A stretch of DNA of 64,000 nucleotides from positions 62,001 through 126,000 of the forward strand of contig NZ_JACJPX010000011.1 of the NCBI RefSeq assembly GCF_014696315.1, in the 5' to 3' direction. The translations under genes and the position numbers were made by a program. This DNA is from Calothrix membranacea FACHB-236 (GTDB lineage Bacteria > Cyanobacteriota > Cyanobacteriia > Cyanobacteriales > Nostocaceae). The notes under the pieces are model-generated. The model was not told the origin of the DNA. It searched no databases and worked only from the letters and a program-made list of their open reading frames with translations. Shown here one piece after another: positions 6,445-9,101 of this stretch; position 1 is the first letter of the stretch, and every line of letters starts with the position of its first letter.

Positions 6445-7620
6445 TCACGTTTCATATCTAATCCCCGCATCCTTCAAGCGTTGAATGGCTTCATGCATTC
6501 GCTCATCGGGTATGGTTAAGGCTATCCGGAAAAAGCCTTCTCCAGATGCGCCATAACCGTTACCCGGAGGCACAAGAATACCGCATTTGTCAAGTAATAA
6601 AGTGACAAACTCTGTGGATGTATATCCTGGCGGAACTGGAACCCAGACGTAAAGAGTTGCTTGTGGCGGCTGAATTGGCCAGCCTAGAGATTGTAACCCT
6701 TTCACAATAATGTCCCGACGATTTTGGTAAACAGAGATGAGAGATTGCAATTCTACTTCATTGGTAGAATAGGCTGCGATCGCACTCTGTTGAATTGCCT
6801 TAAATACCCCAGAATCGACGTTGCTTTTCACCTGGGTTAAGCCTTTAATCCCAATGGGATTACCAACTGCAAAACCAATCCGCCAGCCCGTCATATTGTA
6901 GGACTTAGACAGACTATGAAACTCAATTGCTACATCTTTAGCACCTGGAACCTGTAGCACACTTGGCGGTTTGTAGCCATCGTATGCCATTTCTGAATAA
7001 GCGTTGTCATGACATAGCAAAATATCGTACTGCTTACAGAAAGCTACCAATTCTGCAAAAAAATCTACTGTTGCTATTGCTCCTGTCGGATTATTAGGAT
7101 AGTTAATCCATAAAAGTTTCGCTTTATGAGCAACTTCCTCTGGAATCATATTTAAGTCCGGCAAAAATTGATTTTCTGCCTTCAGAGGCATTGTATAAGG
7201 CTCACCACCAGCAAATAATGTTGCAGTTCGGTATACAGGATAACCAGGATCTGGTATTAGCGTATAGTCTCCTGCTTCGACAAAGGCTAAAAAGGTGTTG
7301 TGAATCGCTTCTTTAGAACCAATCGAACACACAACCTCTGTATTTGGATTTAAGTCAGCCACACCAAACCGACGTTCCATCCATTTAACCGCTGCTTCCC
7401 GAAATTCTTGAGTACCTTGATACGGTGGATAGTTGTGAGTAGCAGCGTCATCTATCGCCTCATGCATTGCCTGGAGAATATAAGCCGGAGTTGGTTTATC
7501 TGGATCGCCGATCGCCAAATTGATGATATCAACTCCCTGAGCTTCGAGTTCATGCCGTTTGCGGTTAATTTCAGCGAACAGGTAGGGAGGAATTTTTTCT
7601 AGGCGTTTAGCGAACTGCAT
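6445..7620 (-). CDS. LL-diaminopimelate aminotransferase-type class I/II aminotransferase
   Basis: The 391-residue PLP enzyme is of fold type I. The N-terminal INLAIGDPDKPTP is typical of the LL-diaminopimelate/aspartate aminotransferase group. The binding-site motifs are NYPNNPTG (173-180), the cofactor Asp in LLCHDNAYSE (Asp205), and SLSKSYNMTGWR with the Schiff-base Lys239. It most resembles the DapL-like family that converts tetrahydrodipicolinate and glutamate to LL-diaminopimelate in one step (lysine and peptidoglycan synthesis). Cyanobacteria also have the other DapL type, so an aspartate-family transaminase role is possible. The N-terminal start MQFAKRLEKIPPYLF fits family members exactly. 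Confidence 0.82.
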   Translation of the reverse strand: MQFAKRLEKIPPYLFAEINRKRHELEAQGVDIINLAIGDPDKPTPAYILQAMHEAIDDAATHNYPPYQGTQEFREAAVKWMERRFGVADLNPNTEVVCSIGSKEAIHNTFLAFVEAGDYTLIPDPGYPVYRTATLFAGGEPYTMPLKAENQFLPDLNMIPEEVAHKAKLLWINYPNNPTGAIATVDFFAELVAFCKQYDILLCHDNAYSEMAYDGYKPPSVLQVPGAKDVAIEFHSLSKSYNMTGWRIGFAVGNPIGIKGLTQVKSNVDSGVFKAIQQSAIAAYSTNEVELQSLISVYQNRRDIIVKGLQSLGWPIQPPQATLYVWVPVPPGYTSTEFVTLLLDKCGILVPPGNGYGASGEGFFRIALTIPDERMHEAIQRLKDAGIRYET

Positions 7621-7943
7621 GGCGGCTTACTACTAATGCAAATTTTTGATGCTCATTAGCACAGTTTACGCCAGAGTAGGTAACCAAATCTTAAAACTCA
7701 CACAAAAATAACGCCAAGGTCATTATGCTGGTATCGCTGCGGTAGTAGCCTTCTTCAGAACTTTATAGCAATGGATATGCTGACCATTTGCACTTAAACG
7801 TTTCCCTAGGGTTGGTTAAGGTAGCTTTGATCTTACCAAGCTGTACTATTTGTCAAGGCTGCAGTCTTACAATTCTGTGAAATATTCTAAATTATATAGC
7901 TCTAGATAGAGGCAAAAGCTGCAATTGTCAGCGATGTTTGTTA
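7621..7943. other. Intergenic region, about 320 nt
   Basis: I see no coding potential or RNA motif. An imperfect CTAATG/CATTAG dyad lies just upstream of the aminotransferase start. The rest is presumably the aminotransferase promoter and the 3' flank of the small hypothetical gene. Confidence 0.4.
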
Positions 7944-8141
7944 CTAACCTAAGCTAGGAACCAATTTAATTCGGCCTGCATCCATCTCTGCCATTAATAA
8001 CTCTAAAGCTTCATAATCAACATCAGAGATGTAACCCATTTCTGTTAATTCTGAATTGATTTCATCTTCAATTTCAGGAGTTAATTTTTTAATATAAAGG
8101 GCTTTTTCTACCAATTGACGAATAGCATGTCTAGTTCTCAT
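7944..8141 (-). CDS. Small conserved hypothetical protein, 65 aa
   Basis: The product starts MRTRHAIRQLVEKALYIKKL and then becomes acidic and helical (EIEDEINSELTEMGYISDVDYEALELLMAEMDAG). It is soluble and has no signal or membrane segment. Small proteins of this composition with the MGYISDVDYEALELLMAEMD pattern are, to my recollection, common in filamentous cyanobacteria, often in several copies, and have no assigned role. A perfect CRP-type palindrome is centred about 90 nt upstream of its start codon, a usual place for an activator site, so this gene may be the regulated one. Confidence 0.7.
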   Translation of the reverse strand: MRTRHAIRQLVEKALYIKKLTPEIEDEINSELTEMGYISDVDYEALELLMAEMDAGRIKLVPSLG

Positions 8142-8613
8142 AAAGACTCAGCCAATTTGTATTTGCTGTTAATTATCCAAGATCAAGTTTGGTATAAAAA
8201 GTGATCCCAATGCCTAAGATAGTGTGATCTAGATCACAAAGTGTTTGTTAAAGGAATACACGATTACAGTTAGTATCTGCCACTGACAGGGTCGAATATA
8301 TAAGGGCTTTTACTAATGACCAAACTTATTCTAAATCATCCTTAGCTATAGATAAAATCAACTATCTCAGCATAGCTACGGAGATTGATTCTGCTCTTGG
8401 AATTGCTATGTTGATTGTTTTTGAACTGGAGTGAAAAAAAAGTATATATACATACATTTTAACTATTAATTATGACAATCTTTAAACAGAGGTATGAAAC
8501 CTATAAAGATTTAGCAAAGAAACATAATACAAATGGTCGATGTTATGAAAAAAAGTTTATGTTCAAATACATCTAAGCTTTAAGGTTCAATAACTTTAAA
8601 TTAGGATTTCATT
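8142..8613. other. Divergent intergenic region with CRP-type site and a 34-codon ORF
   Basis: This gap separates the divergent 65-aa gene and STAS gene. Besides the CRP-type site, it holds an ATG-initiated ORF of 34 codons on the plus strand (8472-8576) encoding a Lys-rich peptide starting MTIFKQRYETYKD. Its reality cannot be judged and it may be chance. The rest is AT-rich. Confidence 0.45.
8223..8238. promoter_or_regulatory. Perfect CRP-family binding palindrome
   Basis: TGTGATCTAGATCACA is a perfect match to the TGTGA-N6-TCACA consensus of cAMP receptor proteins, which cyanobacterial SYCRP1 and AnCrpA also recognise. It lies between the divergent small hypothetical gene (start 82 nt away) and the STAS gene (start about 375 nt away). 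The six-base spacer TCTAGA is itself palindromic. Confidence 0.75.
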
Positions 8614-8916
8614 ATGCAAGCGGTACTTAAATGTCCAAAAGTTACAGTTATTCGTCCTCAAGGCTGCCTTAATGCCGCCAACGCTTTAGAATTTGAGCGG
8701 GATCTAACTACAGCGTTGACGCAAGATGATACTTCTATCTTGTTAGTGGATTTGGCAGCAATAGAATCATTAGACAGTGCGGGATTGATGGCATTGGTAT
8801 CTGCGCTGAAACTGGCTGGGAGTTTAGGGCGAAGCCTCCAGCTTGGCTCAGTGTCTCCGTCAATTAGAATTATTTTTGAATTGACACAACTCGATCAAGT
8901 ATTTGAAATCGTTTGA
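8614..8916 (+). CDS. STAS-domain protein (anti-sigma factor antagonist type)
   Basis: The 100-residue protein is a single STAS domain. The N-terminal strand VTVIRPQGCLNAANALEFERDL is followed by LLVDLAAIESLDSAGLMALVSAL, where the Ser of DSAGL is the residue phosphorylated in SpoIIAA-type anti-anti-sigma factors. The C-terminal half ends FELTQLDQVFEIV. In this family, dephosphorylated antagonists bind an anti-sigma kinase and so free a partner. Cyanobacterial members take part in partner-switching modules, but no kinase or PP2C phosphatase gene is next to it. The ATG follows a TAGGA-like purine stretch. Confidence 0.92.
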   Translation: MQAVLKCPKVTVIRPQGCLNAANALEFERDLTTALTQDDTSILLVDLAAIESLDSAGLMALVSALKLAGSLGRSLQLGSVSPSIRIIFELTQLDQVFEIV

Positions 8917-9101
8917 GGCTAACCCTGATGTTGCAGCAGCTTGACTTCATAGCAAATAAGCAATGCTGCTGTTGAGGGTGGCTTGGACAGCCAGCTTTGT
9001 AACGGAATTGTAAGTTGCGGCAAACAATTCTGTAGAAAGACCTAATCAATGCTAAGGTTGGAGGTGAGTAGCTGTAATTAAGGTAGCTAGAAGATAGCAC
9101 A

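Follow-up and report, generated by a model that had tools for sequence, protein, structure and literature searches.

The intergenic gap of 472 nt at 8142-8613 of the window (the whole 64-kb stretch of DNA that was analysed), which separates the gene of a 65-residue protein from a STAS-domain gene, contains the palindrome TGTGATCTAGATCACA, and comparison with related genomes gives good support to the view that this palindrome is a CRP-type site, deeply conserved in cyanobacteria and located upstream of the small gene (Table 1). The encoded protein, in turn, is well supported as a homologue of the CdgR N-terminal module that stands alone. We propose that the locus specifies an interaction module which is controlled by cAMP-CRP and takes part in the CdgR pathway, an explanation to which, taken as a whole, we assign a probability of about 0.7; its parts that we infer are cAMP as the effector, activation as the sign of control, the position at which transcription starts and how the protein acts.

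Table 1. Features of the small-gene promoter and its surroundings, with positions in the window.
Feature	Position	Strand	Remarks
Gene of the 65-aa protein	7944..8141	-	ORF; well-supported stand-alone homologue of the CdgR/ComFB N-terminal module
Inferred 24-nt 5' leader	8142..8165	-	start assigned from spacing, 7 bases past the -10 box
-10 box GATAAT	8172..8177	-	lies 22 bp beyond the second 16-bp position
Weak -35-like hexamer TTTTTA	8195..8200	-	17 bp before the -10 box; read from sequence
Second, degenerate CRP-type position	8200..8215	-	half-site GATCAC at 8201-8206; centre about -42.5
CRP-type palindrome TGTGATCTAGATCACA	8223..8238	.	centred at about -65.5 relative to the inferred start of transcription; core conserved in 106/113
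STAS-domain gene, divergent neighbour	8614..8916	+	PF01740, E 9.5e-15; judged not to be the main target

As claimed in the initial annotation, the palindrome is a perfect match to TGTGA-N6-TCACA, and it is the single exact occurrence in the window, where 0.08 were expected; exact matches were present in 8 of 100 shuffled windows. As to the additional claim that such a site is unlikely by chance, in the complete genome (8.8 Mb) there are 10 exact matches to TGTGA-N6-TCACA versus 6 for the reversed control pattern, so that rarity by itself is a weak argument, and it is conservation at a specific position that lifts the site above chance. According to a script count, eight of the 10 perfect sites in the genome are inside reading frames of at least 70 aa, one of them being counted solely via an alternative GTG start, while TGTGATCTAGATCACA and one other perfect site (2/10) are outside such frames. 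One perfect site elsewhere in the genome (L004, 1501-1516) lies right at the beginning of a reading frame that opens with VCDEVHKMKLRELL; it may in fact be located upstream of the true start of this frame.

Relatives of the small gene were detected in 189 of the 192 family genomes and in 71 of the 292 genomes of a phylum sample, the latter count leaving out three genomes (G284, G294 and G410) whose matches are longer ComFB proteins, as seen for G294 and G410 and assumed for G284. The upstream DNA was read in 128 of the 189 gene-bearing family genomes, which comprised the best-scoring ones, then at least one per further genus, and then all 15 gene-bearing genomes without a CRP match. When the best core within -115 to -62 was taken for each genome, and GTGA-N6-TCAC was scored as intact, 106 of the 113 CRP-positive family genomes proved to have an intact core, located about 88 bp ahead of the small gene; 105 of these cores fall between -87 and -98, and a single one is at -70. 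Among the non-intact cores, six are one base off and one is two bases off. The full 10-base TGTGA-N6-TCACA was kept in 32 of these 113 genomes, the outermost T and A being variable. None of the 128 family genomes had the core in an equally wide control interval located further upstream. Outside the family, the core was intact in 24 of 39 CRP-positive genomes, located between -84 and -129, another four genomes being one base off and 11 having nothing close to the site, versus 2 of 40 with a core in the control interval. Conservation of the palindrome in relatives, named in the initial annotation as a way of checking the site, is thus borne out for its core. Although the 10 perfect sites found genome-wide versus 6 places with the control pattern would be compatible with a chance occurrence, this origin is refuted by the core counts at the specific position, both within and outside the family, when set against the control intervals, and its probability is practically nil. 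In one genome (L202, G043) a long inverted repeat replaces the usual promoter ahead of the small gene.

The site had been described as lying at a divergent promoter, which is a loose description, given that the centre of the palindrome is 89 bp from the ATG of the small gene but 383 bp from that of the STAS gene. Regulation of the STAS gene, alone or jointly with the small gene, would be in line with its position as divergent neighbour in many relatives and with the nearly constant length of the gap, which in 27 sequences measures 480-509 nt when 24 nt of coding sequence are counted in. However, the core is kept in 26 of the 27 examined CRP-positive family genomes that have no STAS orthologue (no STAS match reaching 1e-20), as it is in 80 of the 86 that have one, indicating that STAS is not the main target. 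Considered together with the 383-bp distance and with a separate conserved block closer to the STAS gene, this persistence suggests that the site goes with the small gene; the earlier suggestion that it also controls STAS was therefore rejected as very unlikely. The STAS-proximal half of the gap (8410-8610) is in itself strongly conserved, apart from the CRP site, in an alignment of 27 sequences from 26 genomes (two from one genome). An RNA element in the gap was also considered and rejected, since no Rfam match was obtained within 7600-9100 and RNAalifold gave no convincing structure for the gap alignment.

In cyanobacterial genes activated by CRP, the -10 box is reported about 22 bp downstream of the CRP site (PMC2633013). 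At the small-gene promoter this spacing is found from the second, degenerate position, the distance from the perfect palindrome being larger. Among the 112 CRP-positive family genomes in which the core is intact or one base off, 109 have a TCAC, TCGC or TCAT that follows the TCAC of the core at a shift of 22 or 23 bp, and in 99 a stretch of 22 bp separates the second 16-bp position from a -10 box. If transcription starts at 8165, as the spacing suggests, the palindrome and the second position would be centred at about -65.5 and -42.5, respectively. In the genome G004 (L066) there is one full palindrome, at the downstream position, and in G226 and G276 there are near-complete sites at both positions. 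A generic promoter scan did not list the small-gene promoter, which fits its poor -35. As the second position overlaps the -35 region, and position alone is no proof of the sign of control, CRP might repress the small gene instead of activating it. Nevertheless, a weak -35 and a -10 box at a distance of 22 bp correspond to the layout reported for CRP-activated genes (PMC2633013), and if a repressor were lost, a promoter sufficient in itself should remain. We consider repression unlikely, and activation by CRP the preferred reading.

Regarding the regulator, the genome itself encodes a CRP-family protein of 232 aa (L106), which we take to be the SyCRP1/AnCrpA-like CRP. In phmmer searches of the PDB, this protein matched a Crp-family regulator at 7.6e-32 and E. 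coli CAP at 2.5e-18, and against the NCBIfam CRP model it scored 80.5 bits, below the cut-off of 266. At a threshold of 1e-60, CRP matches were obtained in 176 of the 192 family genomes, and 15 of the 16 genomes without CRP carry the small gene. In these 15 genomes the core is intact in six (G097, G109, G114, G135, G154 and G173) and damaged or gone in nine, being one base off in G042, G137, G152, G161, G176 and G178, two bases off in G081, and gone in G013 and G062; the damaged sites are spread over three genera (g13, g42 and g27). Intact cores in 106 of 113 genomes with CRP versus 6 of 15 without it represent a clear trend, to which exceptions exist (Fisher p = 2e-6, or 4e-7 when the incomplete genomes G135 and G154 are left out, the genomes not being independent). 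Four genomes rated 99% complete (G114, G173, G097 and G109) have an intact core and no CRP match, G114 retaining a CRP fragment with an internal stop. In the phylum sample of 292 genomes, 65 have both the gene and CRP, six the gene only, 21 CRP only and 200 neither. The CRP count excludes G114 as well as eight weak matches, and part of the co-occurrence is accounted for by common descent.

The possibility that the palindrome is bound by another protein of the CRP/FNR family (an AnCrpB-like paralogue, NtcA, DevH or other) has to be weighed here, as the genome contains 14 matches to the CRP-type helix-turn-helix family, 11 of them over the cut-off. Moreover, 11 of the CRP-less genomes are also without an AnCrpB-like match, so that the two losses are inseparable there, and G097 and G109, which have no CRP match, keep both an AnCrpB-like gene and the site. 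On the other hand, in G027 and G103 the AnCrpB-like match has internal stops, yet CRP and the site are intact, whereas G280, from outside the family, keeps an AnCrpB-like protein (52% identity) and has neither CRP nor site. These patterns favour, rather than prove, the CRP orthologue over AnCrpB as the predicted binder, and the sequence of the palindrome also agrees with the published cyanobacterial CRP consensus (PMC2633013); binding by another member of the family seems rather unlikely. The proposal that the 65-residue protein is under cAMP control accordingly stands with regard to a conserved CRP-type site ahead of its gene, while for cAMP as the effector we infer its role from the protein family.

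The 65-residue protein had been presented as one of unknown function, a description that turned out to be incomplete. No Pfam family was matched at E<=1, hence no ComFB domain, and nothing usable was obtained from NCBIfam or PHROGs. Weak matches in the phylum sample pointed to ComFB proteins, and in two of the sequences (L185 and L186) a similar stretch precedes PF10719. When the profile of the small-protein family was compared with the PDB, the best match was 8hja, a 'c-di-GMP receptor', over residues 2-57 with E 0.0037, the next one being at 0.77; the CdgR of the own genome matches 8hja at 4.8e-55. An hhalign comparison of 127 small proteins with 31 CdgR N-termini (out of 32, one without the split motif being left out) gave a probability of 96.2 and an E value of 2.5e-9 for this one comparison, with a score of 46.6 over 62 gapless columns, whereas the ComFB domain part was matched with a probability of 0.23. 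By BLASTP, 20 of 62 residues are identical between the small protein and the CdgR N-terminus. Judging from these comparisons, the protein matches the N-terminal module of the CdgR/ComFB receptor and is not itself a member of the ComFB family, as the ligand-binding ComFB domain is missing.

With 62 residues only, 31-32% identity, shallow family alignments (Neff below 2) and a structure model too weak for testing homology, the match could reflect convergence of short helical sequences, the role of the small protein being then unrelated to CdgR. However, in 30 column shuffles of the hhalign comparison the best score was 18.4, far from the 46.6 obtained, and the match is gapless, nearly end to end, and stops at the ComFB boundary, which makes convergence quite improbable and homology to the CdgR module the better reading. 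The AlphaFold model was poor (mean pLDDT 58.5, three helices) and Foldseek gave no match to it at E<=0.001, an outcome that speaks neither for nor against the CdgR match.

No co-occurrence of the small gene with CdgR was seen among the 29 genomes with the gene and 11 without it that were compared: CdgR is present in 25 of the former, with no match in G013, G031, G272 and G274, and in nine of the latter. The gene occurring without CdgR in 4/29, and CdgR without the gene in 9/11, they are not obligate partners. In the same genome there is a second small protein of about 70 aa (L331 935-1147, C12; TRIRDVVQKAL...ESRERCGIK), which matches the module profile weakly (E 0.0157) and has relatives in other family members (L334, L337, L339 and L340). 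Another small group carrying the module consists of L335, L336 and L338, and CRP-type cores are present upstream in L335 (-240 and -99) and L338 (-120), with none in L336.

In the mechanism that we propose, the palindrome would be the upstream operator of a CRP-dependent promoter reading towards the gene of the 65-aa protein. A CRP dimer would bind the palindrome at about -65, and CRP would also be placed at about -42 via the conserved half-site, just upstream of a good -10 and with a poor -35, the likely outcome being activation at high cAMP. The product would be a stand-alone N-terminal module of the CdgR/ComFB type, probably helical and without the ligand-binding ComFB domain, that most likely acts by contacting another protein, which may be CdgR or one of its partners, such as the CRP-family regulator DevH, and cAMP levels would thereby adjust the cyclic-di-nucleotide pathway. 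CdgR is reported to modulate cell size through DevH, and c-di-GMP-free CdgR to decide size and viability in Anabaena (PMC13075795). ComFB binds both c-di-AMP and c-di-GMP, and in a ComFB mutant some proteins controlled by SyCRP1/2 or LexA are changed (PMC12313861). A more far-reaching version, possible but doubtful, is that the 65-aa protein is induced by cAMP and mimics the N-terminus of CdgR, competing with CdgR on DevH or capping it there, so that control of cell size and development by c-di-GMP is overridden by cAMP-CRP, and that it is one of several stand-alone copies of the module in cyanobacteria (the others being L331-L340, with CRP-type cores before L335 and L338), forming a family of small signalling adaptors.

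A target kept in most of the family genomes examined, and in many cyanobacteria beyond the family, would belong to the core of the CRP regulon and be a good handle on the role of cAMP in these organisms. The combination of a CRP promoter with a piece of CdgR/ComFB would, in addition, offer a concrete route for crosstalk between cAMP and cyclic di-nucleotides, and this crosstalk would fall in a pathway where free CdgR is reported to decide cell size and survival (PMC13075795).

With CdgR/ComFB (8hja, PF10719), the small protein shares the N-terminal module, in a gapless alignment, but it differs in having no ComFB domain and no Pfam match, and in being encoded by a separate gene with a CRP-type promoter; no description of a separate CdgR N-terminal module under a CRP promoter was found in the literature searched. 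Enterobacterial CRP promoters with tandem sites (class II plus upstream) have one position near -42 and one upstream. The small-gene promoter resembles them in having positions near -42 and upstream, and is unlike them in that the strong site is the upstream one and the half-site the downstream one, at a spacing of 22-23 bp. In Nostoc sp. PCC 7120, we presume from gene order that asl4328, which encodes a small protein of similar size, is the orthologue of the small gene. This gene is described as encoding a 68-residue hypothetical protein specific to Nostocales, Oscillatoriales and Chroococcales, and is listed as a clade signature (PMC2823733), the sole paper found for asl4328 and its neighbours in the literature searched. 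The main text of PMC2633013 does not mention asl4328. According to the same study, most predicted cyanobacterial CRP targets are unshared, the most conserved being common to just 5 of 12 genomes, and unlike those targets the small-gene site is shared far more widely. In its fit to TGTGA-N6-TCACA, the spacing of about 22 bp to the -10 box and the CRP-family protein encoded in the genome, the predicted promoter agrees with the cyanobacterial CRP regulon as represented by SyCRP1 of Synechocystis and AnCrpA of Anabaena, to which, from its sequence, it is an unusually conserved addition.
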